A stretch of DNA of 54,322 nucleotides, taken from the IMG/VR virus record IMGVR_UViG_3300020436_002755, positions 1-54,322 of that record, one strand, 5' to 3'. The stretch comes from a virus. Of this stretch, positions 3,870 through 21,901 are shown one piece after another. How positions within the stretch are numbered: the first letter of the stretch is position 1; each line of letters begins with the position of its first letter. A program made the translations under genes and the position numbers. The notes below the pieces were generated by a model, which saw nothing but the letters and a program-made list of their open reading frames with translations, did not search any database and had not been told where the DNA came from.

Positions 3870-4152
3870 TTTGATCCTCCCGACCCTTCTCGTTATCTAA
3901 ATGTTTTTCCATTTCTTTATGTTCAGGATCATCTTTCTCCTTGAACCAATAATCAGTTGATTTTGCCAATACTGCTACGTAAGCACCGACCATGATATTA
4001 ATCAAGTCACGAGATGCTTGTGGTAATTCAACATAAAACAACAACCAAATGAGAAAAATAAAAGTAAGTGCTATGATAAGAGTGATTACAAATCTTGCAC
4101 CAAAGTTTAATTTTTTTCTTGCTTCAATTGACTGCATTGTTTTCCCCATCAT
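3859..4152 (-). CDS. Small membrane protein, two transmembrane segments
   Basis: Residues about 20-42 and 51-67 are hydrophobic and likely span the membrane. The tail is acidic and charged (KEKDDPEHKEMEKH). Three in-frame ATGs (4152, 4149, 4137) are available; a GGAG site fits the first two. A holin-like or envelope-anchored role is possible from size and topology, but no family motif supports it. It overlaps the iscU gene upstream by 29 bases if the first ATG is used. Confidence 0.55.
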   Translation of the reverse strand: MMGKTMQSIEARKKLNFGARFVITLIIALTFIFLIWLLFYVELPQASRDLINIMVGAYVAVLAKSTDYWFKEKDDPEHKEMEKHLDNEKGREDQSGY

Positions 4153-7180: not shown

Positions 7181-7779
7181 CTCTTGTTGAATCCTATTCG
7201 TTTGTAATCTCTATCTTCATGATATTGATAACCGTCTAATTCTATATCATTCTCATTCCATACTGGTATGATTTCTGTATATTCACCCATGTCTTCATTT
7301 GCTCGTAGATGAACTTCAATCAATTTGTCACCTATAAACTCACAATTAATACAATCATAATCACCTTTCAACTCACTTAATATCGTAGGATAATCTACAA
7401 CATCATCAACCTTTATCCATTTTTTAAACTTCCATAATGGTTCATGAAACTCTCTGATACCTTCAGTTGTCAATCCTTGTTCGTATGTCCTGCTCTTCTT
7501 ATTGAGATTAAAATCTACACTCAAATGCCTACCATCAAATATCTCACACCAAAAATGCCCAGGTGGCAATTCTGTCGTTTCTTTCTCAATGTGTCTAAAC
7601 TCTGCTCCTCTACTCATACCAGCAAGATTGACACACGGTCTTACTATGTATATACCTGGTTCAGGCACCCACATATCAGCAGGGCCACAATTGTATCCCA
7701 ATTTAGTTGATAAAATGCACTTATCAAATATCCATAAGTCATCTTTATGACAACTTATCCATGCTTCATCATCCTCCAT
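7177..7779 (-). CDS. Hypothetical protein, possibly ATP-grasp-like, 200 aa
   Basis: The segment YIVRPCVNLAGMSRGAE near residues 44-60, the PPGHFWCEIFDG segment and the late EFIGDKLIEVHLRAN stretch resemble the nucleotide- and metal-binding parts of ATP-grasp-like phage proteins. This is a weak, pattern-level resemblance and I do not assign a reaction. The protein is soluble, rich in Trp, Asp and Glu, and lies between a lipoprotein lipase and a GNAT gene with overlapping ends. Confidence 0.45.
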   Translation of the reverse strand: MEDDEAWISCHKDDLWIFDKCILSTKLGYNCGPADMWVPEPGIYIVRPCVNLAGMSRGAEFRHIEKETTELPPGHFWCEIFDGRHLSVDFNLNKKSRTYEQGLTTEGIREFHEPLWKFKKWIKVDDVVDYPTILSELKGDYDCINCEFIGDKLIEVHLRANEDMGEYTEIIPVWNENDIELDGYQYHEDRDYKRIGFNKR

Positions 7780-8500
7780 GTCGTGAAAGAACCTTTTTGT
7801 ATTCTTTTATCGAATGATCTCTCGCATCAATTTTTGTTACATCACCAATAGGATGATCTTCATCCCAATCGAGAGTTTGTGCATCTATTCTTATGCCCCA
7901 ATGAACATATGGAAATGGCGGAAGAAATGGAACAGGATCGTTTTCAAGATAAACTCTAAAATGACCATCTGTCCAGAGTTGTTTTGTTATTACTGCTGGT
8001 GACCCAAAACTATAAATTTGCACTTCATATGCATCATCTTCAAGCCAAAGCCCTATTATTTGTGCTATGGCACCACCAAGAGAATGACCAGTGAGAATTA
8101 CAGTTTCTTCTAAAGCATGATTTTCTATAATTTCTTCTCGTATTTTTTCGGCGGCATCTCTGAAACCTCTGTGAATATCGACCCCAAGTTTTTTGTCGTA
8201 GAAGGGACGAAAGTCGAGATCTGATAGAACATTTCTACCATTGTTAGTGCCACGAATGCTAATAATAGTGACACCACGATCTTGAACCACATTATATGCG
8301 AATTCATTATCTGCTATCTCCTTACCTTCATCGTAGATTCTCTCGCAATATGTTGCCATCTCAACAAGAACTTCTACACCTACTGGTATATTTTCTTTTG
8401 TGCCGTTCGCTCCGCCCATACTCAAAAATTGATTTGTAGATACACAGGATGTAAATATGAATAATATGAATCCTAGGCTAATCTTTCCAAGATGTTTCAT
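7769..8500 (-). CDS. Lipoprotein class 3 lipase / esterase
   Basis: The start is placed at the ATG at 8500 because it opens a lipoprotein signal: MKHLGKISLGFILFIFTSC, with lipobox cysteine C19. The alpha/beta-hydrolase core follows: ILTGHSLGGA with nucleophile S140, acid D188 in NDPVP and H229 near the C-terminus, the triad of class 3 lipases. It would be anchored in the envelope and could hydrolyse membrane lipids. In a phage this fits membrane disruption at lysis or remodelling during infection. It overlaps the membrane-protein gene upstream by 23 bases. Confidence 0.75.
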   Translation of the reverse strand: MKHLGKISLGFILFIFTSCVSTNQFLSMGGANGTKENIPVGVEVLVEMATYCERIYDEGKEIADNEFAYNVVQDRGVTIISIRGTNNGRNVLSDLDFRPFYDKKLGVDIHRGFRDAAEKIREEIIENHALEETVILTGHSLGGAIAQIIGLWLEDDAYEVQIYSFGSPAVITKQLWTDGHFRVYLENDPVPFLPPFPYVHWGIRIDAQTLDWDEDHPIGDVTKIDARDHSIKEYKKVLSRHGG

Positions 8501-8783
8501 TCTCTTCTTTCTTCTTCCAAGTTGCAACTCCGAGTATGCCTGCAAATGCTATATGAAACATACCGCCCATCTGTAATGTTAATGGTTCCCATCGTGTAGC
8601 ATCACAAACCAGACCTTTATCGACCATTTTGTGGCAATAGGATTCCATTCTCATATTCCACATTAATGGAGCAACAAAAAAATCGGTGAAGCATAGAAAA
8701 AGATAAAGCAATCCAGCCCAGTCTTTCCAATACCGATTAATAGTGTAATTTATACCGCTATTCGTCTTCTCTATATTTTCCAC
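8478..8783 (-). CDS. Small membrane protein, possible holin
   Basis: The longest frame starts inside the upstream gene. The GTG at 8783 after a GAGAAG sequence is a more likely start but is not certain. Two hydrophobic segments flank a loop with two Cys. The C-terminal part (RWEPLTLQMGGMFHIAFAG) resembles small membrane proteins of marine phages sometimes annotated as holins. It lies directly before the lipase gene, so a joint lysis role is conceivable but inferred. Confidence 0.45.
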   Translation of the reverse strand: MENIEKTNSGINYTINRYWKDWAGLLYLFLCFTDFFVAPLMWNMRMESYCHKMVDKGLVCDATRWEPLTLQMGGMFHIAFAGILGVATWKKKEENETSWKD

Positions 8784-8997
8784 GTACTTCTCGCTGAAGG
8801 ATTCCCCATTCAAGATCTTGACAAAGAACATCTAATCTAATCAGGTCTTTACGTAGTCTAGTGACCTGTCTTACAATCTCATTTCGCCCTTTGTGTGTCT
8901 CTGGCAAAACATCATATACTTTCTTTGCTAACTCAATCAGAGATGGTAAATCCTTGAGCAATTGTACTTCTCTTCTAATCTGCTCTTCTGTTCTCAT
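8758..8997 (-). CDS. Hypothetical charged helical protein, 79 aa
   Basis: MRTEEQIRREVQLLKDLPSL starts a nearly all-helical Lys/Arg/Glu/Leu-rich protein likely to form a coiled coil. It has no cysteine motif, signal or membrane segment. It starts 4 bases after the stop of the lipoprotein gene upstream and overlaps the membrane-protein gene downstream. Function unknown. Confidence 0.55.
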   Translation of the reverse strand: MRTEEQIRREVQLLKDLPSLIELAKKVYDVLPETHKGRNEIVRQVTRLRKDLIRLDVLCQDLEWGILQREVRGKYREDE

Positions 8998-9001
8998 GAA
9001 A

Positions 9002-9874
9002 TTATTTAGATAAAATTATCTTCAATGTTTGACTATCTGCACTACAACTTTTACCAACTCCTCCCCAATTTCTATTGCCTATCAATGGTCTGATTGTATA
9101 TCCTATGTCTGTAGATTTTAGACAAGCACAATCTCTTCTCTGTCTATCAAATGCACTTAATTCAAGCCCCCACCCACATTTACCTATTGTCCAGTACATA
9201 CCATCACAATATAAACCATAGACCTCAAATGATGCGTTGTCTTTATTTCTCAAAAAATCATTAATGAACGTACTATTTGTACAAGAGGTCATATTATCAG
9301 GATTACCTATTGAGATATTATCCCAGGTCTGACTTGATGCATTATCCCAAAAATCTTTATAAGTCTGTTGTTGTGTCTGTGTTGGAATTACATTTCTTGT
9401 AAAGTTATCTGACCAAGAGAGTATTGTTGTGACTGTTGTTTCTATCGTTTCATTATCAATCGTTTCAACCTCTTCAACAGGATAATCAGGGTTGATATCA
9501 ACAGAAATAGTAACAGTCCTGGTTGGAGGGCTATTAAATGAGACAGTAAAAGGGTCTGAAACTCCAGATTCATAGTGTATCTTTGGATGATCAAATGTAT
9601 AGTTTTTGTATTCCACTTCAAGATTCACATCTATTGGAACTAATACAGTTCCTGTCATAGAATTATTTAATACTGTAGAATCGTAAATATATTTTTCAAG
9701 CACATCTCTTACATTAATGTGATGACTTGAAGTTAATACAGGTCGAGCACCTGTTCTATATCTTGGTTGTGATTGCTGATGCTCATAATTTAACGTAACT
9801 TTTACGTCTTCTTCTTTTTGACCCTCACAAGCAATTAAAAATAGAATAAGAAGACTATTTAAGAGGAGGCGCAT
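9002..9874 (-). CDS. Lipoprotein with Cys-rich C-terminal domain
   Basis: The ATG at 9874 opens MRLLLNSLLILFLIACEG, a lipoprotein signal with lipobox LIAC; GGTGG lies upstream. The first two thirds are Thr/Ser/Asn-rich beta-type sequence. From about residue 190 the protein carries seven cysteines in a compact domain with GKCGWGLE, CACLK and GNRNWGGVGKSC, suggesting a disulfide-stabilised surface domain. It could be a superinfection-exclusion lipoprotein or a host-surface modifier; neither is shown. It overlaps the binding-protein-like gene upstream by 20 bases. Confidence 0.55.
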   Translation of the reverse strand: MRLLLNSLLILFLIACEGQKEEDVKVTLNYEHQQSQPRYRTGARPVLTSSHHINVRDVLEKYIYDSTVLNNSMTGTVLVPIDVNLEVEYKNYTFDHPKIHYESGVSDPFTVSFNSPPTRTVTISVDINPDYPVEEVETIDNETIETTVTTILSWSDNFTRNVIPTQTQQQTYKDFWDNASSQTWDNISIGNPDNMTSCTNSTFINDFLRNKDNASFEVYGLYCDGMYWTIGKCGWGLELSAFDRQRRDCACLKSTDIGYTIRPLIGNRNWGGVGKSCSADSQTLKIILSK

Positions 9875-11336
9875 ATAATAATCCACCTTCTGTGTATAGT
9901 TTATTGTATCCTCTTTTGAGCCCTAAATCAGTATTCGGACCTACATGTTTCTCATAAATCTCTTCATAATTACCAAGTTGTTTAATTATCTCTATACTCC
10001 AATTGGATGCAAGCCCAAGTTTGGCACCTAAGTTATCCGTTTCTGGTGTGTTACCATTTCTCTCACCCATAAATCTCTGTATCACAGGATCAATATTCTC
10101 CATATAATCATCTATGTTCTGTGATGTAATATCCAACTCCTCCGCTAAAAATAAAACATTAACTGTCCATCTTGTTATGTCAGACCATCTTTGGTCTCCA
10201 TATTTTACTGCTGGCCCTAATGGCTCTTTTGATATGATCTCTGGTAATATTACATGTCGTTCAGGATGTTGAAATCGTGCTTTATGCCCTGCTAATGCAG
10301 ACATATCTGTACCATACATGTCGCAATCGTTGTCAAGATAATATAACTTTGGACTATCTGTTGGTGGTATTGCTACGGGTACAAAATTAATCTGCCATTT
10401 ATCAAAAAAATCTCTAATGTTCTGAGCGGCCGTAGAACCTGTATTGAAACAGACTCTTGCATTCATCATATCTTTTGCACTCTTTACACCAAGATTCTTA
10501 CGTACCATGAAACCTTGACCATCATAAAACACTGTTGGCAAAAATTCTATTCTCCAATCAACATCTCTAGAAAATGTCCATGTTGTCGTTGCAGATAAAA
10601 TATCAATTGAACCATCAAATAATCTCTCAAAACGTGTTCTACCATTGATAGGAATAAACTTTATCTTTGTCTTGTCAAGAAATAGTGCTACTGCAAATGC
10701 TCTACAAATGTCTATATCAAATCCATACCATCCTGCTGGCTGGCCATCATGTCTTTTAAGAAATTCCTCACTAAATCCTGGTGTGTCAGCATAAGTTCCA
10801 CATACTACATAACCTCGTTCTTTAATACGATTGACTGTTGATTCATAGGTAGGTTTATACTCATCACCAACTACATACATGTCGCCCATGTGCTTTTGTT
10901 TATGTTGCTCTTCTACCTTTTTAAGTCGTTCTAATTCTTTTTTGAGTGCATCGAGTTCGTCTTTTGCTATGATTGAATTAACTTCAGGTTCTGTCTCGTT
11001 GTCAGGTGGGGGATTGAGAGACATCATCTCTCTGTAATTAATACCGTCTTCGTTAAATTGTCGTTCTGGTTTATGCATGGATGGCAAAACAAAGGTCTGA
11101 CCTTTTTCTACATTACGATCCCAATCACGATCACCTGTTGCTTTTTCCATCTCATAAAGAAAATCACCTCGCTCAGTATAACCTGCAAGTTTCATCATCG
11201 CACCAATATCAAGACGATTTCTTATGGTAAATTGTGCTTCTATTTCTATCATGTTTTGAGATCCTTGGAGCACATATCCTTGCGATATGCCAAGTATCCA
11301 AAACATGGTAATCATAGCGAAAAAGATTTTGATCAT
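9855..11336 (-). CDS. AapJ-like amino-acid binding protein fused to a novel N-terminal region
   Basis: The ATG at 11336 overlaps the cytochrome-gene stop as TGATG. Residues 1-22 are a signal peptide. Residues about 25-165 are an unrecognised region ending in a Lys/Glu coiled coil. From about 170 the sequence follows the periplasmic general amino-acid binding protein (AapJ/BztA, SBP_bac_3): VVCGTYADTPGFSEEF, GFDIDICRAFAVALF, an RFERLFDGSIDIL segment and a C-terminal WTVNVLFLAEELDI part. No AapQMP transporter subunits are present. It may hijack a host permease, soak up amino acids or use the fold as a ligand sensor. At 493 residues it is much longer than the usual ~340. Confidence 0.75.
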   Translation of the reverse strand: MIKIFFAMITMFWILGISQGYVLQGSQNMIEIEAQFTIRNRLDIGAMMKLAGYTERGDFLYEMEKATGDRDWDRNVEKGQTFVLPSMHKPERQFNEDGINYREMMSLNPPPDNETEPEVNSIIAKDELDALKKELERLKKVEEQHKQKHMGDMYVVGDEYKPTYESTVNRIKERGYVVCGTYADTPGFSEEFLKRHDGQPAGWYGFDIDICRAFAVALFLDKTKIKFIPINGRTRFERLFDGSIDILSATTTWTFSRDVDWRIEFLPTVFYDGQGFMVRKNLGVKSAKDMMNARVCFNTGSTAAQNIRDFFDKWQINFVPVAIPPTDSPKLYYLDNDCDMYGTDMSALAGHKARFQHPERHVILPEIISKEPLGPAVKYGDQRWSDITRWTVNVLFLAEELDITSQNIDDYMENIDPVIQRFMGERNGNTPETDNLGAKLGLASNWSIEIIKQLGNYEEIYEKHVGPNTDLGLKRGYNKLYTEGGLLYAPPLK

Positions 11337-11797
11337 CACTTGAGAACCCTATAAATGTTCATGAGTTCTTCATCTGGCAAAGGGGTTGCCATTGTGTAAT
11401 ATTTTTGATGACCTATTGTCATGAATGCTTTGAGGTCTGCGAAACTAGGATAAGTTCCTTGGAGCCCAGATATTAAATAATCTGGTTCAAGGTGACATGT
11501 AGAGCATTCATTACCCTTTGCAAACACTCTCGTTGCCGCCTTGTATCTTTCGCTTGTAACTAAGACTGATGTAAGATCTTTCTCAATCCACTCAACCTTC
11601 TCTTCGATACCAGGAATGACTAGAAATAACAAATATACTAGCAATCCTATTGTTATGAAGATAAAGGTTTTAAGACTTTTTACCGCATCAAAAGTATCTT
11701 CTTCAATCTTTTTGACAGGCTCAAATCTAACCTCTCCTCCTTCTGTTTCTATTTCTTGACCAACACCTTCTGGCTCTTTATTTTTTTGCTCAGCCAT
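11336..11797 (-). CDS. Membrane-anchored monohaem c-type cytochrome-like protein
   Basis: The ATG at 11797 follows GGGG at seven bases. Residues 1-42 are acidic and cytoplasmic; 43-63 is one transmembrane helix, placing the C-terminus in the periplasm. There a CSTCH motif (C98, C101, H102) fits covalent haem c attachment, and M126 or M136 could be the distal ligand. Haem attachment would need the host cytochrome c maturation system. The domain is very short (about 60 residues after the motif), so it could also be a stripped relict. It overlaps the amino-acid-binding fusion downstream, suggesting co-expression in the envelope. Confidence 0.6.
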   Translation of the reverse strand: MAEQKNKEPEGVGQEIETEGGEVRFEPVKKIEEDTFDAVKSLKTFIFITIGLLVYLLFLVIPGIEEKVEWIEKDLTSVLVTSERYKAATRVFAKGNECSTCHLEPDYLISGLQGTYPSFADLKAFMTIGHQKYYTMATPLPDEELMNIYRVLK

Positions 11798-12273: not shown

Positions 12274-12281
12274 TATAAATA
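12274..12281 (+). promoter_or_regulatory. T4-type late promoter, exact TATAAATA, plus strand
   Basis: A perfect TATAAATA lies 25 bases before the ATG of the asparagine-synthetase-like gene, with a GGAAAGGA ribosome-binding site (12293-12300) between. It is the only exact plus-strand late promoter I found and starts the only plus-strand unit in the window. Confidence 0.75.
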
Positions 12282-12306
12282 CAAAAGAAATTGGAAAGGA
12301 CAAATA

Positions 12307-13188
12307 ATGACATCGTTGATTGACCCTCATGATTTCACCGCAGTAACCTCAAAACTCAGACAATTCTTTCAAGACAAAAATTTCGTAGAAGTTCATACGC
12401 AAAATCGTTTATCGATTCTTGCCGCCTGTGAAGATCCTACTACTGTCACTACGTATGAGTATGGAGGTACTATATGGCCACTACCTCAAACAGGACAAAT
12501 GTGGCTTGAATATGAACTTCTAACAAGACCTGATATCAACGGTTGTTTCTGTGTAAGTACAAGTTACAGACAAGAACCCAATCCAGTTGCAGGCAGACAC
12601 GAATTAATCTTCCCAATGTTTGAATTTGAGATGCCTGGCACGTTTGATGATATGCTCAAAATGGAAGATGAACTATGCACATATTTAGGATTTAAATGCG
12701 ACCATGAAAGAGCCCGATTAACGGATCACTTTCCTGGTGGCAACTATTTAAGTATGTGCGGTAAATATACTGCTTCTGATAACACTCTCACCAATAAACA
12801 TGAAGCAGATATGTATAATGAGTATGGAGACGTATTTTTCCTCACACACTTTCCCTATCACACTTCACCATTTTGGAATATGAAAAAATCACCTGTTAAG
12901 GGTTCAACAGGCAATGACGTTGCATATAAATGTGACGTTATTATTGGCGGAATGGAAACGATTGGTAGTGCAGAGAGAGCAGATGATGTCGATGAAATGA
13001 GAGAACAATTTCACACTATTTCGGATGGCGGATATGCTGATTTGCTTTATAATTTGTTTGGAAAAGAGAGAGTTCTCAAAGAATTGGACGAGTTTCTAGC
13101 ACATGATTTCATGCCTCGTTTTGGTGGGGGTATTGGTGTAACTCGTATGATTAGTGGTATGAAAAAAGCGGGATTACTTGTTGATTGA
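12307..13188 (+). CDS. AsnRS-like catalytic core / archaeal-type asparagine synthetase A
   Basis: A 293-residue class II aminoacyl-tRNA-synthetase core. Motif 2 is at STSYRQEPNP (R88-E90), followed by HELIFPMFEFEMPG; motif 3 is FGGGIGVTRM (273-281, R280). VFFLTHFPYHTSPFW parallels the active-site strand of AsnRS/AspRS. The anticodon-binding OB domain is absent. A lone AsnRS-like core of this size matches archaeal asparagine synthetase A paralogs (about 294 residues), which make Asn from Asp, ATP and ammonia. An enzyme charging an unusual RNA is the alternative, because a tRNA-like element follows 57 bases downstream on the same strand. Confidence 0.75.
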   Translation: MTSLIDPHDFTAVTSKLRQFFQDKNFVEVHTQNRLSILAACEDPTTVTTYEYGGTIWPLPQTGQMWLEYELLTRPDINGCFCVSTSYRQEPNPVAGRHELIFPMFEFEMPGTFDDMLKMEDELCTYLGFKCDHERARLTDHFPGGNYLSMCGKYTASDNTLTNKHEADMYNEYGDVFFLTHFPYHTSPFWNMKKSPVKGSTGNDVAYKCDVIIGGMETIGSAERADDVDEMREQFHTISDGGYADLLYNLFGKERVLKELDEFLAHDFMPRFGGGIGVTRMISGMKKAGLLVD

Positions 13189-13245
13189 AGTAGTAATTCT
13201 ATTGAATCTTTATGTTGCCTATTTGATTATAATGAACTAACACAC

Positions 13246-13342
13246 TCTGGGGTGGCGAAAAAAGAGAGTTCAACTCTCGTGGCAAACGCATTCCGTTGTT
13301 GGCGGTCATAATCTGAAGGTTCGAATCCTTCCCCCAGAGCCA
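13246..13342 (+). tRNA. Unusual tRNA-like RNA, candidate tRNA-Asn(GUU) with D-loop hairpin insert
   Basis: The ends are canonical: a perfect 7-bp acceptor stem (TCTGGGG 13246-13252 with CCCCAGA 13332-13338), discriminator G and encoded CCA (13340-13342), and a perfect T arm (GAAGG, TTCGAAT, CCTTC at 13315-13331). A 3-bp D stem (GCG 13255-13257, CGC 13287-13289) encloses an oversized D loop containing a hairpin GAGAG-TTCAA-CTCTC (13264-13278). The anticodon arm is irregular: CCG/CGG around a 7-base loop reading GTT (Asn), extendable by A-U pairs past a 4-base bulge, with G at position 37. A discriminator G suits tRNA-Asn. A weak TATAAT is at 13228-13233. Confidence 0.6.
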
Positions 13343-13351
13343 GACAAAGAA

Positions 13352-13759
13352 CTATTTATAAGGCATTTGAAATAAAGCATTGATCCAAGTTTGTGGTTTA
13401 TTTCTTGCAAACACAACCCAACCAAAATAATTTGGTTTTCTATTTCTAAAATACTGTTCAGTAAATTCCTCAAACGAACCACCTGTAGTCAAAACATCGT
13501 CACAAATGAGATATGGGTCTTCATCGTGATTACCAGTGGCATATTCATTTAAGTGTCTGCCTAGTTCAACACCACCTCTTGGTATGCCTATGGCGGCACA
13601 AAATGGTCGTGTCTCATGCTCCATAATCATTCTTGCAATACACTTCCATTCATTAGGAAATATTGCATCACATTCAATCTTCCAGTGTAATTCACCACCA
13701 GAATGACCTATAAAGTCTTCTTCAACAAATAAATAATTTTCTCTTACATGAAAACTCAT
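13352..13759 (-). CDS. Phosphoribosyltransferase, orotate-PRTase-like, short
   Basis: The PRPP-binding loop YLICDDVLTTGGSF (around residues 83-96) is a clear type I phosphoribosyltransferase motif. IGIPRGGVELG earlier provides the pyrophosphate loop. At 135 residues it is much shorter than PyrE (about 210). It directly follows pyrF with an ATGA-type overlap, suggesting orotate to OMP, then OMP to UMP, but another nucleobase cannot be excluded. It is the last gene of the long minus-strand operon and ends 9 bases from the tRNA-like RNA transcribed toward it. Confidence 0.7.
   Translation of the reverse strand: MSFHVRENYLFVEEDFIGHSGGELHWKIECDAIFPNEWKCIARMIMEHETRPFCAAIGIPRGGVELGRHLNEYATGNHDEDPYLICDDVLTTGGSFEEFTEQYFRNRKPNYFGWVVFARNKPQTWINALFQMPYK
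13353..13360 (-). promoter_or_regulatory. Late-promoter-like TATAAATA at the end of the PRTase gene
   Basis: An exact minus-strand TATAAATA overlaps the last codons of the PRTase gene. If active, it would transcribe antisense through the tRNA-like RNA and the synthetase-like gene, or add a late start for 11825-12169. Position inside a coding end makes chance occurrence plausible. Confidence 0.35.
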
Positions 13760-14406
13760 AAACTTCCTTTTATCTTCACTAAAACTTCATTAGGGTTTTC
13801 TGCTTCTGTTACAGTTCTACCTAGAATTATCGTACTCGCACCCTCATCTTTTGCTTGTTTAGGTGTTCCTGTACGTGCTTGACCAGACGTTTCTTTCTCA
13901 AATACTATACCAGGACAGATGTAACGAAATGCACTTGGTCCAGTAAAATCAAGTGATTTGATTGTTCTTAAATCTGTCACAGGACATACGAGGTCTTGAA
14001 AATTATTATTTCTAAGTTTAGCCATACATTGTGACCAGACATTATATGATATGTCTCTCAGTATTCCACGTTCTGCTTCAGGACTCCATGATGTAAGTGA
14101 TACGACACCAACTAACTTTATTTGATCTGATATTTTTTTAAGTCTCTCAAATACCTCGTGACTATTATGAGCATTGATAGACACCATTGTGCCGCCACGA
14201 TCTATGACTTTTTTGACAACTGTTTCAACTGTATTAGGTGTGTCCCATAACTTAAAATCAACAAACAATTCTTTCTTCCAACTATCTGGCCATGCTACAA
14301 TCTCATCCCATAGTAGATGATTTATTTTAAAACCATCAACATAGTCTTTGATTCTCTCTGCAAGTTCTAATGATTTTTTTGTCTCAAGTGATACGAGTAT
14401 TTTCAT
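13756..14406 (-). CDS. pyrF: Orotidine 5'-phosphate decarboxylase
   Basis: A complete 216-residue OMP decarboxylase. The catalytic D-x-K-x-x-D is in FVDFKLWDTPNT (D50, K52, D55), and the C-terminal phosphate-binding region reads QARTGTPKQA with the following ILGRTVTEA. It converts OMP to UMP, the last step of pyrimidine synthesis. The start overlaps the stop of a 29-codon frame upstream and its stop overlaps the PRTase start, so the pair works as orotate to UMP if the PRTase is PyrE-like. PRPP synthetase lies two genes upstream. Confidence 0.85.
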   Translation of the reverse strand: MKILVSLETKKSLELAERIKDYVDGFKINHLLWDEIVAWPDSWKKELFVDFKLWDTPNTVETVVKKVIDRGGTMVSINAHNSHEVFERLKKISDQIKLVGVVSLTSWSPEAERGILRDISYNVWSQCMAKLRNNNFQDLVCPVTDLRTIKSLDFTGPSAFRYICPGIVFEKETSGQARTGTPKQAKDEGASTIILGRTVTEAENPNEVLVKIKGSL

Positions 14407-14492
14407 AACATTCCATAACTATCCCACGTTGCGATTATGTAATAAGTGCCGTAGATGCACAATGAATGAAACAGAAACATTGTAAGTGTCAT
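14403..14492 (-). CDS. Small membrane peptide, 29 aa, coupled at both ends
   Basis: The ATG (14492-14490) overlaps the SGNH-gene TGA as ATGA and the TGA (14405-14403) overlaps the pyrF start as ATGA. The 29 residues form one hydrophobic, aromatic-rich segment beginning MTLTMFLFHSLCIYGTYYII, likely one membrane helix. The double overlap is the main reason to think it is translated. It could only serve to carry ribosomes to pyrF. Function unknown. Confidence 0.4.
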   Translation of the reverse strand: MTLTMFLFHSLCIYGTYYIIATWDSYGML

Positions 14493-15226
14493 TGATATAT
14501 GTACCTAAATTCATTATCTGTTCTCGGTTCGAAAATCTCTGATCTTTTACCACCATAAAAATAATTTGCAATTATATTATACATGATCTCATGATCTTCT
14601 TTATAAAAATGATTTTTACATTTGACAGGAGTATTTCCATAATCTCTACCGTATGCTGATAAAGTATTTGAATACAGTTTAAATTGATCATCGTTGAGTT
14701 CTGTTAGTTTAAATATGTATTCATCATTTTTACATGATTCGAGTGTTACCGTATTTAAATCAACGGTAAAACAAACAAAAACAATAATTTTTACATTATG
14801 TAGCATTGAAATGCATTTGAGTGTCATGATATTTTTATAATTTAAATGATATAATTCATCACTCATAAAATTATAAAACGACTTTGTTTGTTTTTTGTAT
14901 TGAAAAAAATATCTATAAAGAGAATTACCAATTAATGCAAACTCACCAAACTCTTTAGCATGACTCTGTTCCTCTAGAAAGTCAAAATTTAATCTAAATG
15001 GATTAGATAATAAAAAAACTATTTTTGCATGTTCGTCATTGCAAATGTCATTATGATTTTTCCAAAATAACTTAAAATGATCGATTGGACCAATCGCTCC
15101 AATACAATAATTATTTACCTTTTCATGTTTAGTCAATAGAGAATACCAACAATCTGTGTTAGCAACTACATCATCATGAGGTGACTGTCTTGGATCACCG
15201 TAACTATCACCAAATATGTAAATCAT
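14489..15226 (-). CDS. SGNH/GDSL hydrolase-like protein
   Basis: The N-terminus MIYIFGDSYGDP carries the block I G-D-S motif with the nucleophile serine at residue 8. The C-terminal HFYKEDHEIMYN segment could supply the catalytic Asp-x-x-His region. Interior blocks are less clear, including NYCIGAIG for block II. These enzymes cut esters of lipids, sugars or nucleotides. There is no signal peptide, so a cytosolic substrate is likely. It overlaps prs upstream by four bases, placing it in the nucleotide operon. A virion-associated sugar esterase is the alternative. Confidence 0.6.
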   Translation of the reverse strand: MIYIFGDSYGDPRQSPHDDVVANTDCWYSLLTKHEKVNNYCIGAIGPIDHFKLFWKNHNDICNDEHAKIVFLLSNPFRLNFDFLEEQSHAKEFGEFALIGNSLYRYFFQYKKQTKSFYNFMSDELYHLNYKNIMTLKCISMLHNVKIIVFVCFTVDLNTVTLESCKNDEYIFKLTELNDDQFKLYSNTLSAYGRDYGNTPVKCKNHFYKEDHEIMYNIIANYFYGGKRSEIFEPRTDNEFRYIYQ

Positions 15227-16149
15227 TCGAATAAAACTGATATAGATTCGTCATGATGCACTCTACGAATTGCTTCTGCAAATAGTTTGCTTACAGATAA
15301 AACTTTGATTTTCTTATTATCATATTGAGGTATAGAATCAGTGATGGTCAGCCCACCCATGCTCGATTCGTTGATCGTTTTCATCCCTCCGTTGCTTAAT
15401 ACGCCATGTGTTATATACGCTTGCACTTCTTCCGCTCCATTTTTCAAAAGAGCATCGGCGGCTTTGACTAATGTTCCACCTGTATCCACTATATCGTCTG
15501 CTATTATGCATTGTTTTCCTTTGACGTTTCCGATTACGTTCATTGCTTCACTTTCATTCGCTTTATCTCTGCGTTTGTCAATGATAGCAATGTCCAGATT
15601 GAGTTCTTTTGCAATAGATCTTGCTCTTGGAACACCACCTGCATCAGGTGATACAATCAATGCATTTCCATTACTCACCATTGGTCGTTTCATTAAATCT
15701 TTGGCGAACAAAGGTTTAGACCTCAAGTCATCTACAGGAATATTAAAGAATCCTTGTATCTGACCAGCATGTAAATCCATAGTCATTACTCTGTCAGCAC
15801 CAGATATCTGAATCATATCTGCTACTAATTTTGCGGAAATTGGTGTTCTAGCGGCGGGTTTTCTATCTTGTCTAGCGTAACCATAATAAGGCATGATAGC
15901 CGTAATACGACCTGCACTTGCTCTTTTACATGCATCAATGAGAATCAACAATTCCATGAGATTGTCATTTGCAGGATTACAAGTGCTTTGTATAATGAAA
16001 ACATCCTCACCACGTATGTTTTGACTGATTTCGCAAAATATTTCCCCATCTGCGAATCTTTGTAGTCTTCTTTCTGTGAGGGCAATGCCTGCATGGTTAG
16101 AAATATGATTTGCAAGCAGTTTATTAGAATTACCAGATAATAAAATCAT
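15223..16149 (-). CDS. prs: Ribose-phosphate pyrophosphokinase (PRPP synthetase)
   Basis: Full length (308 residues) and close to class I bacterial enzymes. It has the ATP-binding RxxxxR region around QRFADGEIFCEI, the ATP/ribose part MPYYGYARQDRKPAAR, the Mg-binding MTMDLHAGQIQGFF, and the PRPP loop CIIADDIVDTGGTLV. It makes PRPP from ribose 5-phosphate and ATP, the substrate of both phosphoribosyltransferases in this operon and the entry to UMP synthesis. It starts directly at the end of the oxygenase gene upstream. A phage copy would lift PRPP supply for genome replication. Confidence 0.92.
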   Translation of the reverse strand: MILLSGNSNKLLANHISNHAGIALTERRLQRFADGEIFCEISQNIRGEDVFIIQSTCNPANDNLMELLILIDACKRASAGRITAIMPYYGYARQDRKPAARTPISAKLVADMIQISGADRVMTMDLHAGQIQGFFNIPVDDLRSKPLFAKDLMKRPMVSNGNALIVSPDAGGVPRARSIAKELNLDIAIIDKRRDKANESEAMNVIGNVKGKQCIIADDIVDTGGTLVKAADALLKNGAEEVQAYITHGVLSNGGMKTINESSMGGLTITDSIPQYDNKKIKVLSVSKLFAEAIRRVHHDESISVLFE

Positions 16150-17025
16150 TTAATAACTCTGTTGTAATCTCCATAGTAGGTACTCATATGAAGATATTGG
16201 TTCATATTTATCAGGTTCTTTTGTTAAATTTTTGACAATCGTATCTTTGTTTGGACCGACAAAGTACGGCATAGAATATCTTGATTGATCAAGAACATTC
16301 ATCACTCTATGAGGTGTAGAAACGTATCTATCATTTGTCCATCTCTGAAACATGTCAGCAATATTCACTACTACGCTATTTTCTATTACTGGCACTTCAA
16401 TCCACTCACCATCAATGGTTTTGACAAATAGACCACCACAATCTTGAAAACGAAATAGCATAGTGAATGTATCATAATCTGTATGCTCATTACCTCTCAT
16501 TTGTTTGTCTTCTACAGGACCTTCATACTTTGGATAGTGTATTATTCTCGCAGTAGTCGTACCGTAAAGATGTTTTTCAACAAGATATCCATATGGTAAT
16601 CCTAATGCAAACTCAAATCTTTCTAAAAACTTGAAAGACAAATAACGCATTATACGTTCAATCTTCTCTGCTTGTGTGCGAAACAATGTTATCTCAGTAG
16701 GCCAGTATTTGTCATCCATATCATACGGAGCCTTCCAGTTGTATGCTTCTTTGAGATCACCAGGTCTGTCTGGATGTAACCATTCAGACTCCATCTCAGA
16801 ATAACCTAAGTTCTGTTGAACACCTGAATATTTGTATTTGTTTTTAACTTCTAAAGGTAGGTCAAAAAACTCTTTGATGAGATGTTCCCATACTATAAAG
16901 TCAGTTGTATATTGTTCATATACATTTGTGACAATAGCGAAACCTATTTCTTTAAATGCCGTATCTAACTTGCGAGATACGGCAATATCCATTTCACTAA
17001 AATCAATTATCGGTATTTTGGTCAT
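16150..17025 (-). CDS. 2-oxoglutarate/Fe(II) oxygenase, isopenicillin-N-synthase-like
   Basis: A 291-residue member of the DIOX_N/2OG-FeII_Oxy group. Iron ligands are visible as H181 and D183 in NEHTDYD and H239 in STPHRVM. R249 and S251 in RYSMPYF bind 2-oxoglutarate. The N-terminal IPIIDFSE start is typical. Fungal thymine 7-hydroxylase belongs to this same group, so a pyrimidine substrate fits the surrounding PRPP, PRTase, OMP decarboxylase and transporter genes. This link is inference, since many other substrates are known. It lies between prs and the propeller protein, overlapping the latter by ATGA. Confidence 0.8.
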   Translation of the reverse strand: MTKIPIIDFSEMDIAVSRKLDTAFKEIGFAIVTNVYEQYTTDFIVWEHLIKEFFDLPLEVKNKYKYSGVQQNLGYSEMESEWLHPDRPGDLKEAYNWKAPYDMDDKYWPTEITLFRTQAEKIERIMRYLSFKFLERFEFALGLPYGYLVEKHLYGTTTARIIHYPKYEGPVEDKQMRGNEHTDYDTFTMLFRFQDCGGLFVKTIDGEWIEVPVIENSVVVNIADMFQRWTNDRYVSTPHRVMNVLDQSRYSMPYFVGPNKDTIVKNLTKEPDKYEPISSYEYLLWRLQQSY

Positions 17026-18053
17026 ACTGCTTCAGGATAGCGGTGTGCCTTAAAGCACGAATTATGTTTGCCAGTAATAAACTTATTTAGAGGTTCAGGA
17101 TATTCTGCAAAGTCAGGTATTACATACTCCCATACTGTCTCACCTTCTGGTGTTACCTCAAAGATTCTGCCAAATGCACTTTCACATATCATCGTATTAT
17201 CATTCCACAATCTCTGTACGCTACCCATGTATGGTGAGAAAAATGCTGGTGGCATCTCATCAGCATACGACCATACTAATTCTTTAGTCTTTATATCATA
17301 TTCTACGATACGTGAATGATGTATAGATGATGGACGAATGTTACCATTATCAAAACAGATTAGCGTTCCGTCAGGTGTGATAGATGGGTCATGTTGTTGT
17401 GCTACAAGAGGATACTTCAACTCCCACTCTATGCTCTTCGTTTCTTTATTGACTGCAATGATACCAGATGTTGTTCGCAAACTTAAATATACTAATTTAC
17501 CATGCTGATACACACCATTTATCATCGGCCAATGATCATCATTAAAACACTCATGTATCGGCCAGTCTTCTTGTTTTAGATGCTCCCATGCTCTCCATTC
17601 CCATACGACTTCACCTTTACGATTTACTTCTCGCACAATATCTGATTGTTTGTCCCACTTTCTTACTGGTACATCTGCGGCGGCCGCATATAAGATGTGA
17701 CCATTTGGTAGCCATTGTGCATCATGGTGATGATACATGTCTTCATATTCCCAGACAACATCACCACCTGGTGTCACTTCCATAAAATGACCACCATGCC
17801 AGATATCCCAAGCAGGATACAGGTGTGCAGATCGTTCATTACTTCCATTGTATCCGAGATTACCATGGTTAAGAATGACTGCATCTCTGCCTGGGCGAAT
17901 CGGTAGATTCCATTCGTGTTCAACATCACCATGCATGTTGATCAACACTACACGACCATTTCCTGTCTGCGGTGCAAAGAGTGTAAAACCTCCTGCACTC
18001 TTCTCTTCGTTGTAATATGTTACATCTAATTTTCTTCGTTCAATTGTTGTCAT
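17022..18053 (-). CDS. Arylsulfotransferase-like beta-propeller protein
   Basis: The 343-residue sequence repeats blades of the type GEVVWEWRAW, GETVWEYVIP and KELVWSYADE, each with a Trp-Glu strand end, as in the ASST family of six-bladed propellers. His-rich loops (YHHHDAQWLPNGH and IHHSRIVEYD) could hold the active-site His of bacterial arylsulfotransferase. Classical ASST is periplasmic, but no signal peptide is present here, so a cytosolic propeller with another function is possible. The gene overlaps the permease and oxygenase genes on either side. Confidence 0.6.
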   Translation of the reverse strand: MTTIERRKLDVTYYNEEKSAGGFTLFAPQTGNGRVVLINMHGDVEHEWNLPIRPGRDAVILNHGNLGYNGSNERSAHLYPAWDIWHGGHFMEVTPGGDVVWEYEDMYHHHDAQWLPNGHILYAAAADVPVRKWDKQSDIVREVNRKGEVVWEWRAWEHLKQEDWPIHECFNDDHWPMINGVYQHGKLVYLSLRTTSGIIAVNKETKSIEWELKYPLVAQQHDPSITPDGTLICFDNGNIRPSSIHHSRIVEYDIKTKELVWSYADEMPPAFFSPYMGSVQRLWNDNTMICESAFGRIFEVTPEGETVWEYVIPDFAEYPEPLNKFITGKHNSCFKAHRYPEAV

Positions 18054-18811
18054 ATCATTGCACTTTCATGCCACTTTCGCATTAATAAATGTCCGATTGT
18101 TGATACTGTCATGAAGAATAGAAACCCTAACGTGGTTGCTGACAATATCAAAGCCATAACTAATGGTGTCTCTAACTCTGCTTGTGCGTATATAATTTGC
18201 ACACCAAGCCCACCATCTTCACTACCCGAACCTATTATAAACTCACCAACGATTGCACCTATGACTGATAGCCCTGCTGATATTCTCATACCTGCTATGA
18301 TATTAGGTATGGCGGCAGGGAATCTCAACTTAAAGAATGATACCATCTTTGATGCTTTATGCATATCAAATAACTCTACAAGATTTATAGATGTAGATTT
18401 GAGCCCTAGTAATGTATTGTTGATGATAGGAAATAAAGATATAATCAAACTAATTATGATGACTGATCTCTCCTCAAACCCAAACCATAATACAATTAAT
18501 GGAGCAACTGCAACTACTGGTACGGTTTGTAATAGAATAGCATAAGGATATAGACTACGCTCAAGCATTTTAGATAGACTCATAGTTGTCGCTACTAAAA
18601 TACCTATTGTGATTGCAAGAAGATATCCTATTAATGCTTCTCTAAAAGTAATAATAGCACCTTGAAGTATAATTGTAAAGTCATTTATGAATGCTTTTGC
18701 AACTGTCATCGGCCCTGGCAAAAGAAAAACTAAATCATATATTTTTGCACCGACTGACCAGACTGCAAGAAATAAAACGAGAACAAGTATTGGTGGCAAT
18801 ATATTTTTCAT
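18050..18811 (-). CDS. ABC transporter permease, NitT/TauT (SsuC/ThiX) type
   Basis: A 253-residue inner-membrane protein with about six hydrophobic helices and the BPD_transp_1 coupling (EAA-type) loop near LFDMHKASKMVSFFKLRFP followed by AAIPNIIAGMRIS. Its relatives form homodimers with SsuB/TauB-type ATPases and NMT1-type binding proteins, importing sulfonates, taurine, nitrate or pyrimidine precursors. The matching ATPase (19143-19859) and binding protein (19866-20801) are in the same operon, so a complete importer is encoded. The substrate cannot be read from the permease. Confidence 0.85.
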   Translation of the reverse strand: MKNILPPILVLVLFLAVWSVGAKIYDLVFLLPGPMTVAKAFINDFTIILQGAIITFREALIGYLLAITIGILVATTMSLSKMLERSLYPYAILLQTVPVVAVAPLIVLWFGFEERSVIIISLIISLFPIINNTLLGLKSTSINLVELFDMHKASKMVSFFKLRFPAAIPNIIAGMRISAGLSVIGAIVGEFIIGSGSEDGGLGVQIIYAQAELETPLVMALILSATTLGFLFFMTVSTIGHLLMRKWHESAMI

Positions 18812-19152
18812 TGTACTCCACCAATAAAGACTTGAAAATTATTTCCATATGAAATCACACAATATGATTCATATGTTGGATGATATTCAATAATAGTATA
18901 AGTTCCTGATTCAGGATTTACATACATGTCAATTGAGACTACTACTGGTTTTTTTGCAAGTCCTGTTTCATTTCTTACTTTTGTAAATTGATTAGCCTTA
19001 AAAATTAAATCTTCTTTTTTATCTCTAATTGCTCTGAATGTCTCTTGTTCGTCTGCACATATTATTGGTTTGTCATTCCATTCACCTGCTGATACACAAA
19101 CTGTTGCGAATAAACACAATATAACAGAGAATATTTTTTTTGTTATTTCCAT
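18808..19152 (-). CDS. Small secreted protein, 114 aa
   Basis: Residues 1-22 form a signal peptide ending near VCVSAGE. The mature part has two cysteines (C31 near PIICADEQ and C98 near ESYCVIS) that could form a disulfide. Small periplasmic proteins of this shape are common in marine phages, with no known role. It is wedged between the ATPase and permease genes with overlaps on both sides, so it may be a transporter accessory subunit. Confidence 0.55.
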   Translation of the reverse strand: MEITKKIFSVILCLFATVCVSAGEWNDKPIICADEQETFRAIRDKKEDLIFKANQFTKVRNETGLAKKPVVVSIDMYVNPESGTYTIIEYHPTYESYCVISYGNNFQVFIGGVQ

Positions 19153-19859
19153 GTTCTCAACTTTCCAGATATGTCATTGACTATCTTAGTGAATGTTGCT
19201 TTTGATCGTAATGATTGATTTCTTTTCTTGAATGGTATATCAACGACATGCGTAATCTCACCTGGTCGTGGCGACATTACAATCACTTTATTGGAAAGAT
19301 ACACGGCTTCTGCTACATTGTGTGTCACTAATATAGCGGTAAATTTGTCTTGATTCCAGAGTTCGTGTATTTCTTCTTGTAGAACTTCTCTTGTGAGTTC
19401 ATCTACTGCGGATAGGGGTTCGTCAAGAAGCAGAAAGTCAGGTTTAAGCACCAATGATCTCGCTAATGAAAGTCTCATCTTCATGCCACCAGATAGTTGA
19501 TGAGGATAACTTTTCTCAAATCCAGTTAGCCCGACTTGCTCTAATGCTTTTTCTGCTCTGATTTGACGTTCTATTTTGTCAATCTTCTCTAATTCCATGA
19601 GAAGTTCAACATTCTTCTGCACTGTTCTCCATGGAAGCAATGCAGAATCTTGAAAGACAAAGGCACCGCTTGTGTCTTGTTTATTCACGATGCCCTCTGA
19701 AGGAGTCACTAAACCTGCAATTATTCTCAATAATGTAGATTTACCACAACCTGAAGGTCCAACAATAGTTACAAATTCACCCTTGCTAATACTAAAATCA
19801 ATCTTTGATAGAGCATGAACATCATCAAAGTGTTTAGTGACTCCTTGTATGTCAATCAT
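19143..19859 (-). CDS. ABC transporter ATPase, SsuB/TauB/ThiZ type
   Basis: A complete 238-residue ATPase: Walker A GPSGCGKST (34-42), Q-loop VFQDSALLPW (the ALLPW form typical of nitrate/taurine/sulfonate importers), signature LSGGMKMRLSLAR, Walker B FLLLDEP, D-loop LSAVDE and switch His in VTHNVAEA. It hydrolyses ATP to power the adjacent permease. It lies seven bases after the NMT1-type binding-protein gene and overlaps the small secreted-protein gene. Confidence 0.9.
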   Translation of the reverse strand: MIDIQGVTKHFDDVHALSKIDFSISKGEFVTIVGPSGCGKSTLLRIIAGLVTPSEGIVNKQDTSGAFVFQDSALLPWRTVQKNVELLMELEKIDKIERQIRAEKALEQVGLTGFEKSYPHQLSGGMKMRLSLARSLVLKPDFLLLDEPLSAVDELTREVLQEEIHELWNQDKFTAILVTHNVAEAVYLSNKVIVMSPRPGEITHVVDIPFKKRNQSLRSKATFTKIVNDISGKLRTWK

Positions 19860-19865
19860 GATATA

Positions 19866-20801
19866 TTACTTGAAACAACCCTTCTTAAATGAGGTATCAT
19901 ATGACGAATGTGGATCAAAATCAGCAGGCAATACATTCACCTCTTTCATTTGATTTGCAAGTTCTACCCATCTATTAGGATCTTGACAACCAATCTTACT
20001 CCAGTCTTTAGGAAGAAAATCTCTCTTCATAAGTTCCAAAGCATTATTATGAATTTCAGCATTCACTTTCTTACTCTTTGAGAGAATAAAATCTCTTGTT
20101 GGTTTTGGATCAATAAGAGATTTAGGAAATGAAATGCTCAACCTATCAACTACTGCCTGTACGAGTTCAGGATTTTCTTTGATAAGTTTATCAGTTGTGA
20201 ATAATACACTATATGGTCTGTATCCAAGACTCTCTACAGTAATTTGTTCATTAGCAACACCTTTCGCATCAAGTCTTGCTGGCAGAAAAAGTGAATAACC
20301 TTGCTGAAATTGTTGTGGAGTTCTTGCGAACAATCCAAGATCACCAGTTAAAGGAAATTCTTTTACTGCATTCAACTGATATGTGTGTTTCACCCACTTC
20401 CAATATGTCACACCCATCTTAACTGCAAATGGTCTCCCATCAAGATCTTTAACAGAATTGACACCTGTGTTTGGATGAAATACAAGAGTGTAAGGTACAT
20501 GATTAAGACTCACAAAAATACCTTTGAGCCCTGCACCTTTTGCATTAGCCAACATCACACTATCGGATGCTTGTAGTCCAAACTCAACTGAACCAGCCGC
20601 CACTTGTGCGGTTGTATTGACTTTAGGACCACCTGATTTGATTACGATTTTCACATCGTCATGATACTCATTATCGAACTGGGCTTGCCAGTATCCACTC
20701 TGATTTCCTTGTGGAAACCAGTCCATGAGTAAAGTTACTTCTTTTGCATAAGAAGCACCAGCCAAAAGAATGACTGAAAATAACGCAATTAATTTTTTCA
20801 T
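19866..20801 (-). CDS. NMT1/THI5-like periplasmic binding protein (ABC importer)
   Basis: Residues 1-19 are a signal peptide (MKKLIALFSVILLAGASYA). The mature start TLLMDWFPQGNQSGYW has the NMT1/SsuA fold beginning seen in ThiY, which binds thiamine pyrimidine precursors, and in sulfonate binders. GSVEFGLQASDSV and LVFHPNTGVNSVKDL follow as expected. At 311 residues it is normal length. It supplies substrate to the permease and ATPase next to it. Gene context with PRPP, PRTase and OMP decarboxylase genes points to a nucleobase or pyrimidine-like ligand, by inference. Confidence 0.82.
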   Translation of the reverse strand: MKKLIALFSVILLAGASYAKEVTLLMDWFPQGNQSGYWQAQFDNEYHDDVKIVIKSGGPKVNTTAQVAAGSVEFGLQASDSVMLANAKGAGLKGIFVSLNHVPYTLVFHPNTGVNSVKDLDGRPFAVKMGVTYWKWVKHTYQLNAVKEFPLTGDLGLFARTPQQFQQGYSLFLPARLDAKGVANEQITVESLGYRPYSVLFTTDKLIKENPELVQAVVDRLSISFPKSLIDPKPTRDFILSKSKKVNAEIHNNALELMKRDFLPKDWSKIGCQDPNRWVELANQMKEVNVLPADFDPHSSYDTSFKKGCFK

Positions 20802-20809
20802 TACAACTC

Positions 20810-21880
20810 CTATTTAACAGGGAAAGGTGATGTTACACCCTTCACAAAAAATTGCATGGTTTCTAATTCAGGTCTCTTAATCACACCAGCAGGAATTTTA
20901 CCTCCATCCTGTTGTGTTACTCCTTCTGAAAAAGGATACCATGTATCAAGTTCATCGTTGATCCAATTCATTTTTACTGTCTCAACTTTATTCACAACTT
21001 CACCAGGTACATTTTTACCCCACGGTGATAGACCAACACAATTCTTCTCAATACCCCAATTCCATCTCTGACCTGTAGTAAGTTTTCCTTGACTATAAAG
21101 ATCAGCAATGTGCTTGTACAATACATTCCAATTAAACATCATACCTGTAATGTAACTATTAGGACCGAACTGTCCCATTGGTGCATCATTACCCATGCTC
21201 CATACACCATCAGTTTTCTCTGCAAGAGTAACTACAGATGGCGAATCAGTTGTGGTAAAGAGAATGTCATTACCCTGATCTACAAGAACTTTGGCGGCTT
21301 CCATATCTTTGGGTGGATCAAACCATGAGTTAATCCACACGATCTCAACTTCAATGTCAGGATTTACAGATTGAGCACCAATAGTTAATGCGTTGATGTT
21401 ACGAATAATCTCTGGAATTGGGTGCGAACCTACAACACCAATCTTATTCGTCTTCGTCATCATACCGGCGGCAATACCTGTTAGATAACGTGCTTGAAAG
21501 GAATGACAAACATAATTATCAAGATTCTTGTCATTACCTTTGTACCCTGTGGCATGTAAGAAGAATGTCTTCTTATTTTTTTCAGCGGCCCTTACCATAG
21601 GCTCCATGAATCCAAATGATGTACCGAAAACAATATCATGTTTTCTTGCGAGTTTCTTGAAAACTCTTTCACTATCTGCTTCAGGAACAGACTCTACACC
21701 CTCAACTTTATAACCATGTTTTTCTAGAGAGTGAAACCCTTGATGATGTCTCATCGACCAACCTCCATCATTTGATGGACCTACAAGAACAAATCCGATT
21801 GAAACATCTTTTGCATAGGCATAGCCTAGCATAGTCGTACTCAGGACGAGTACGCTGAGGAACGATACCAACTTATTCAT
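20810..21880 (-). CDS. BMP/PnrA-family periplasmic binding protein
   Basis: The ATG at 21880 is chosen because GGAAGGAG precedes it and it opens a signal peptide (MNKLVSFLSVLVLSTTMLGY). The mature protein follows the BMP (basic membrane protein, Med/PnrA) fold: SIGFVLVGPSNDGGWSMRHH near the start, DIVFGTSFGFMEPM, GIAAGMMTKTNKIGVVG and ILFTTTDSPSV. Characterised relatives bind purine nucleosides or nucleobases. Their usual permease type is not encoded here, so it may use a host transporter or share the nearby one. It lies eight bases before the NMT1-like gene. Confidence 0.82.
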   Translation of the reverse strand: MNKLVSFLSVLVLSTTMLGYAYAKDVSIGFVLVGPSNDGGWSMRHHQGFHSLEKHGYKVEGVESVPEADSERVFKKLARKHDIVFGTSFGFMEPMVRAAEKNKKTFFLHATGYKGNDKNLDNYVCHSFQARYLTGIAAGMMTKTNKIGVVGSHPIPEIIRNINALTIGAQSVNPDIEVEIVWINSWFDPPKDMEAAKVLVDQGNDILFTTTDSPSVVTLAEKTDGVWSMGNDAPMGQFGPNSYITGMMFNWNVLYKHIADLYSQGKLTTGQRWNWGIEKNCVGLSPWGKNVPGEVVNKVETVKMNWINDELDTWYPFSEGVTQQDGGKIPAGVIKRPELETMQFFVKGVTSPFPVK

Positions 21881-21901
21881 ATTCTCCTTCCGAGAAAGCA
21901 A

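Follow-up and report, generated by a model that had tools for sequence, protein, structure and literature searches.

De novo pyrimidine synthesis is usually described as universal in starting from carbamoyl phosphate and aspartate. Paralogues of aminoacyl-tRNA synthetases that function in metabolism and tRNAs that are non-proteogenic are each already known kinds of molecules, the staphylococcal tRNA-Gly, which acts as an amino acid donor for peptidoglycan, being an example of the latter. In the cyanophages P-SSM2, P-SSM5, and P-SSM7, an enzyme annotated as a "tRNA ligase" adjoins an annotated tRNA-Asn, and no paper that links the two, or that describes an alternative pyrimidine route, was found in the open-licence literature. 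To our knowledge, a dedicated tRNA-like RNA, an AsnRS-derived enzyme, and pyrimidine synthesis have not been brought together in any described system. Among the metabolic paralogues, the archaeal asparagine synthetase AS-AR is a paralogue of AsnRS (PMC3532385).

The sequence analysed was IMG/VR record IMGVR_UViG_3300020436_002755, a stretch of 54,322 nt referred to throughout as the window, and the piece under study extends from position 12,274 to 13,342. Provided in Table 1 are the features of the locus. The enzyme gene and the RNA form the only plus-strand unit, as had been noted in the preliminary description, and this is consistent with the ORF table of the window. The PRPP synthetase encoded nearby supplies the co-substrate for the phosphoribosyltransferase. 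Lying between the genes for PyrF and PRPP synthetase, at positions 14489-15226, is an ORF of 245 amino acids; a DHODH-like identity was considered for it and rejected, given that neither Pfam nor NCBIfam yields a match and that it shows no homology to the DHODHs that were identified. A 2OG-Fe(II) oxygenase with DIOX_N is encoded at positions 16150-17025, adjoining the PRPP synthetase. Its relatives occur near the enzyme/RNA pair in 11-13 other viral loci, and it may possibly have a role in the pyrimidine pathway. Host-type genes that are unusual for a phage occupy positions 17022-21901 and 7769-11339, and include those for a sulfonate/taurine-type ABC permease, ATPase, and binding protein, BMP-type and family-3 binding proteins, an arylsulfotransferase-like protein, and a class 3 lipase. 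A search with PADLOC for phage defence systems gave no match.

Table 1. Features of the enzyme/RNA unit and of the neighboring pyrimidine-related genes in the window
Feature	Position	Strand	Basis
T4-type late promoter element TATAAATA	12274..12281	+	exact match, 5' of the mini-AsnRS gene
mini-AsnRS, 293-aa AsnRS-like class II catalytic core	12307..13188	+	Pfam PF00152, PDB profile, class II residues, AlphaFold/Foldseek
tRNA-like RNA with Asn identity set (U1-A72, GUU, G73, CCA) and G37	13246..13342	+	covariance, conservation in relatives, linkage to enzyme
Hairpin inserted in the D loop of the tRNA-like RNA, GAGAG-TTCAA-CTCTC	13264..13278	+	sequence
GUU anticodon triplet in loop UUGUUGG, G at 37	13298..13300	+	sequence; family conservation
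Phosphoribosyltransferase-like protein, orotate PRT candidate	13352..13759	-	Pfam PF00156 E=3e-5, under gathering score
Orotidine 5'-phosphate decarboxylase (PyrF)	13756..14406	-	Pfam PF00215 E=1.5e-21; TIGR01740 89.4 bits (cut-off 92.3)
PRPP synthetase	15223..16149	-	NF002320 457 bits, above cut-off of 297

The unit had been credited with an exact late promoter of its own. Whereas the element is present, it occurs five times in the window versus 6.0 times expected by chance, and it gains meaning only from its enrichment in relatives: TATAAATR lies 70 nt or less 5' of the enzyme gene in 29 of 84 of them as compared to 1.05% of random positions, an enrichment of ∼30-fold. Late expression of the unit is likely on this basis. 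Such timing is unusual for nucleotide metabolism and counts against a role in pyrimidine synthesis.

The sole Pfam match of the enzyme is to PF00152 (class II D/K/N), with an E-value of 2.3e-19, and it spans residues 12 to 285 of the 293 in the chain, thus leaving no room for an anticodon-binding domain. Indeed, the N-terminal OB-fold domain that would serve this purpose is absent, and the predicted model begins at the catalytic core, such that the original assignment as an AsnRS-like class II core devoid of an anticodon domain is borne out. The AlphaFold model has a pLDDT of 89, and its Foldseek matches are the catalytic cores of AspRS and AsnRS. Arg 88 and Glu 90 of the motif 2 RxE signature, the catalytic Glu 217, Gly 277, and the motif 3 Arg 280 are invariant in 35 viral sequences and are among the positions that are more than 97% conserved when viral and cellular enzymes are pooled. 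Both Glu 106 and Leu 67 align with AsnRS residues at positions which we take to be the Asn/Asp discriminators. In profile searches against the PDB, AsnRS ranks first (3.5e-12), followed by AspRS and then by archaeal asparagine synthetase A (3p8t, 4.7e-4). Of the two likenesses that had been put forward, namely to AsnRS and to the P. abyssi asparagine synthetase A, the first is therefore upheld and the second is weak. None of the curated family models reaches its cut-off on the enzyme: TIGR00457 (asnS) gives 27.3 bits versus 342.6, and the asparagine synthetase models, NF005053 (17.6 versus 322) and NF005055 (15.3 versus 389), score lower than do those for AsnRS. The corresponding family in PHROGs, 29758, is listed without an assigned function.

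The 5' end of the RNA lies 57 nt past the stop codon of the enzyme gene. The acceptor stem (13246-13252/13332-13338) is formed by seven of seven possible base pairs, the D stem (13255-13257/13287-13289) by three of three, and the T arm (13315-13331) by five of five, followed by the discriminator G at 13339 and the CCA at 13340-13342. The anticodon loop, TTGTTGG, extends from 13296 to 13302 and sits on a stem that is weak in the window RNA (3/5 pairs). All of the anatomical features that had been recognized by eye, including the perfect acceptor and T arms, the encoded CCA, the discriminator G, the GTT loop, the hairpin inserted in the D loop, and the length of the gap to the enzyme, are present. 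With its 5-bp hairpin the D loop is 29 nt long, and a D loop of this type is found in one of 61 distinct family RNAs.

In searches of the region with standard tools, the window RNA was called by neither ARAGORN nor Rfam at its gathering threshold. A covariance model of the family gives a single match in the 54-kb window, at 13246-13339 with an E-value of 2.2e-13, although the window RNA belongs to the 44 RNAs on which the model was trained and the match is thus partly built in. Conservation of the stems is evident in the alignment of these 44 RNAs: pairing holds in 99.7% of the stem cells, and 17 of the 20 pairs covary, with changes on both sides. Both values are far above those for shuffled and slid controls, and no shuffle equals them. 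This pairing covers the four helices of the cloverleaf, and T8, the D-loop G-G, and TTCGA are near-invariant (alignment A3). Most members of the family have a tRNA-Leu-like D arm and a variable arm of 13-39 nt; in the subgroup to which the window RNA belongs, the variable region is 5-7 nt and the anticodon stem is reduced. Except for the D-loop hairpin, the window RNA is almost identical to the RNAs of L023, L029, and L043. An additional relative (L010) encodes an enzyme that is 95% identical to that of the window, yet its RNA has a long variable arm, and RNA types thus seem to have been swapped between close relatives. In the 735-kb genome of the huge phage L005, a tRNA-like stretch (TTGGCGA...TCGCCAA, loop TTGTTAG) lies 5' of the enzyme gene at positions 3836-3930. 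It is also partly present in L288 and is unmatched by the family covariance model.

Asparagine identity resides in the anticodon and G73, the anticodon is what a non-discriminating AspRS recognizes, and U1-A72 singles out tRNA-Asn for amidation (review PMC9976931). As can be seen in the distinct family RNAs, U1-A72, G73, and G34-U35 are each invariant (61/61) and U36 is nearly so (60/61), and hence all of the determinants for charging with asparagine (PMC9976931) are fixed. The CCA is encoded in most of the RNAs. The positions that face the ribosome are relaxed: U33 is found in 51 of 67 pair RNAs and A37 in only four of 67, whereas the ordinary tRNAs of the same loci, a comparison set that excludes two members of the pair-RNA family, retain U33 in 93 of 93 cases and A37 in 21 of the 22 with anticodons ending in U. 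In the window RNA, U33 is kept and position 37 is a G. This combination fits a molecule that would be charged rather than used for decoding. In one family member (L066, positions 3859-3958), GUC (Asp) replaces GUU, with U1-A72 and G73 being kept.

More than 600 stretches in IMG/VR match the enzyme, which occurs in hundreds of marine viruses and is nearly always followed by the RNA. In 77 of the 82 viral loci whose sequence extends far enough past the enzyme gene, the RNA is located just 3' of this gene, usually 5-20 nt past the stop codon, which it overlaps in some phages. In three loci (L042, L048, and L088) it starts 18 nt before the stop codon, which falls within the D loop, and as a consequence the acceptor and D stems also encode the C-terminus of the protein. 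When all of IMG/VR was scanned with a pattern for the RNA only, the enzyme gene was found directly upstream and on the same strand in 111 of 111 informative contigs among the matches listed; among these, the RNA is obligately linked to the enzyme. That relatives keep the two together is thus confirmed from both sides, and the suggestion of a dedicated pair gains support from the lack of any RNA without the enzyme among the matches listed, the covariation of the stems, and the fixed asparagine identity positions. Enzymes without the RNA, which had been named as evidence against such a pairing, do exist in cells and in a few viruses, and it follows that the enzyme does not need the RNA everywhere, but the viral loci overwhelmingly carry both.

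Of the 150 enzymes placed in a tree, 77 make up a single marine-phage clade (SH-aLRT 96) that includes 63 RNA-linked rows. Outside of this clade, virus L213 has a class II RNA with GTT 1 kb 3' of the enzyme gene. It is one of three loci (with L242 and L270) that were initially scored as RNA-less and in which the covariance model identified the RNA. Four seemingly cellular loci that carry the RNA (L087, L088, L108, and L131) probably represent phage contigs within MAGs; the three included in the tree, L088, L108, and L131, are positioned in the phage clade. Three additional MAGs (L100, L111, and L134) likewise fall in the phage clade. No relatives were found on plasmids, and a scan for distant viral relatives with L006 gave none.

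Stand-alone homologues with amino acid sequence identities of 50-60% are encoded by Patescibacteria, Bacteroidota including Aureispira, Pasteurella atlantica, Alphaproteobacteria, Dependentiae, and DPANN MAGs. No RNA adjoins these cellular enzymes, except on contigs that look viral. The covariance model, when applied to whole cellular genomes, matched ordinary Leu-type tRNAs, and a D-arm-plus-GTT pattern was employed instead; in 30 carrier genomes it returned noise at the level of the controls and no special RNA. The RNA is thus unneeded for the chemistry unless an ordinary tRNA-Asn serves in its place. Approximately 80 near-invariant positions are common to the viral and cellular enzymes, which suggests that their chemistry is probably the same.

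The pyrimidine context of the enzyme, which was missed in the preliminary description, changes its likely function. The commonest cellular neighbors belong to the OPRT/OMPDC family (24 of 80 loci) and to DHODH (18 of 80), as confirmed with Pfam on examples. On the complete chromosome of Pasteurella atlantica, the genes for DHODH, the enzyme, PyrF, and a phosphoribosyltransferase are clustered, and CarB, PyrB, and PyrC were not found. Of the 30 carrier genomes, many of which are reduced or are incomplete MAGs, PyrB is above its cut-off in one, CarB in three, and OMPDC in 23, as compared to 14 of 14 controls in each case. The absence of PyrC (TIGR00857 in 1/30 and TIGR00856 in 0/30 carriers) is weaker evidence because these models exceed their cut-offs in only 11/14 and 1/14 controls, respectively, and some carriers retain weaker PyrC-like genes. 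Within the order of Aureispira, PyrB is present in 219 of 249 genomes and is missing from eight of eight enzyme carriers versus 22 of 241 others, with a Fisher p-value of 1.8e-8 that overstates independence because the genomes are related and the loss of ATCase is phylogenetically clustered. The enzyme and ATCase are anticorrelated. About half of the carrier genomes, 14 in number, have no good match to AsnRS; in these, asparagine is probably formed on the tRNA via the indirect route.

Pyrimidine genes also lie beside the pair in phages. In loci L290-L294, a DHODH gene is positioned 66 nt 5' of the enzyme gene and the RNA directly 3' of it. In the window, as in its nearer relatives, a phosphoribosyltransferase and an OMP decarboxylase are encoded beside the pair, and the window also has a gene for PRPP synthetase nearby. 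Homologues of the window phosphoribosyltransferase have the enzyme and OMPDC as neighbors in phages and have the enzyme as a neighbor in Pasteurella atlantica and other bacteria. The association with pyrimidine genes is thus seen independently in cells and in phages. A pyrimidine gene within 3-4 kb of the pair is lacking in most phage loci, and P-SSM2 and P-SSM7 are not among the phages with a window-like OMPDC; where no pyrimidine gene lies nearby, the DHODH, OPRT, and OMPDC of the host could take over.

We infer from these observations a late-expressed module of two parts, an AsnRS-derived enzyme and a tRNA-like RNA, in which the enzyme would feed pyrimidine synthesis with no need for carbamoyl phosphate, and the RNA would serve this enzyme as a dedicated asparagine carrier that is excluded from the ribosome. 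The probability of this reading as a whole is roughly 0.45. Its parts differ in strength. It is quite likely, judging from gene neighborhoods and missing genes, that the enzyme supplies the substrate of DHODH, in place of ATCase and for the most part CPSase. That the amino acid employed is asparagine seems somewhat favored, given the AsnRS-type core and the asparagine identity of the partner RNA. The notion that the phage RNA carries asparagine for the enzyme and is kept off the ribosome is more tentative, falling slightly short of even odds. The RNA would have retained the set required for charging (U1-A72, G73, GUU, the L-shape, and CCA) and lost U33/A37. Because the phage enzyme has no anticodon domain, a host enzyme probably reads the GUU, presumably the host AsnRS or a non-discriminating host AspRS together with a GatCAB that reads U1-A72. 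An asparagine donor or carrier role for a charged RNA, one of the two functions initially proposed, remains the best fit in light of the dedicated pair and the fixed identity positions, with the RNA-free enzymes of cells weighing against it.

With respect to the chemistry, the product would be an early pyrimidine precursor made from asparagine without carbamoyl phosphate or ATCase, most likely dihydroorotate, formed from asparagine, bicarbonate, and ATP with subsequent ring closure. There are precedents for such chemistry. Dethiobiotin synthetase closes a ureido ring via a carbamate. The AsnA core activates the β-carboxylate of aspartate (PMC3532385). The specific prediction that asparagine, bicarbonate, and ATP yield dihydroorotate, with the asparagine amide becoming N3 and bicarbonate providing C2, is rather doubtful as written. 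Equally speculative is a general tRNA-dependent route in which asparagine-derived dihydroorotate would arise without carbamoyl phosphate, ATCase, or dihydroorotase, the asparagine being delivered by the RNA in phages and possibly by tRNA-Asn in cells. The products would then pass to DHODH, orotate PRT, and OMP decarboxylase, whether phage- or host-encoded.

The alternative that survives best, although it is unlikely, is an orthogonal AsnRS/tRNA-Asn pair for late translation, in which charging blind to the anticodon would allow the loop to mutate and escape host anticodon nucleases while GUU reads asparagine codons. Mutation of the anticodon loop has been proposed as a means by which phage tRNAs evade host tRNases (PMC10264068), and the retention of GUU in 60 of 61 RNAs amidst varying flanking positions, the late expression, and an enzyme that has kept all class II catalytic residues without an anticodon domain would suit such a pair. 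The ordinary tRNAs of the same loci, however, keep the U33 and A37 that the pair RNAs do not, the cellular homologues with the same active site belong to pyrimidine clusters that lack the RNA and appear to take the place of ATCase, and phage DHODH and OMPDC genes are also found beside the pair. Less probable still is that the enzyme makes pyrimidines from a free amino acid and that the RNA is a regulator, chaperone, or charging sensor that tunes it to the Asn-tRNA state of the host. Whereas the function of cellular enzymes without a linked RNA, the lack of RNA without the enzyme among the matches listed, and the overlap of the RNA with the enzyme stop codon in some phages would agree with this, the strict conservation of A72, G73, and GUU and the mostly encoded CCA point to aminoacylation and not to binding alone. 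The least probable explanation, and the other function initially proposed, is that an archaeal-type asparagine synthetase provides free asparagine for use by a phage tRNA-Asn: the architecture is that of the P. abyssi AS-AR, an AsnRS-like core without an anticodon domain that is matched at 4.7e-4, but it fits less well since the asparagine synthetase models are far under their cut-offs and below those for AsnRS, the RNA has lost the features of a translating tRNA, and the synthesis of asparagine leaves both the pyrimidine clustering and the absence of ATCase and CPSase unexplained.

If the pair does function in pyrimidine synthesis with the RNA as carrier, it would represent a new entry into the de novo pathway and would explain how UMP is made without CarAB and PyrB in many Patescibacteria, some Bacteroidota, Pasteurella atlantica, and intracellular bacteria. 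Phages would be able to bypass the feedback-controlled first pyrimidine steps of the host, and the RNA would be a rare example of a non-translating tRNA dedicated to metabolism.

A comparison with known systems places the locus as follows. With the class IIb AsnRS the enzyme shares the catalytic core, motifs 2 and 3, and the residues that align with Glu 106 and Leu 67. It differs in having no anticodon-binding domain, in the location of its gene in pyrimidine clusters, in its score far below the asnS cut-off, and in a partner RNA with a tRNA-Leu-like class II body. In both the archaeal AS-AR (3p8t) and the bacterial AsnA, an AsnRS/AspRS-derived core without an anticodon domain has been recruited to metabolism (PMC3532385); the sequence match to these is weak, however, and the enzyme described here has a phage-linked RNA and appears to replace ATCase rather than to supply asparagine. 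It is presumed to act before DHODH, OPRT, and OMPDC, at the point in the pathway that PyrB and CarAB occupy, but its fold is unrelated to that of PyrB, and carbamoyl phosphate is apparently unused given that CarB is also missing in most carriers. Like the staphylococcal tRNA-Gly, the RNA appears to have been kept for charging and excluded from translation, yet it belongs to viruses, has an obligate link to a single aaRS-like enzyme, and is tied to nucleotide synthesis. Finally, the T4-GC 194 "tRNA ligase" and tRNA-Asn of P-SSM2, P-SSM5, and P-SSM7 (PHROG 29758) represent the same enzyme family, at 54-55% identity, and the same RNA, although the two have been annotated apart, the first being called a tRNA ligase and the second an ordinary tRNA-Asn.
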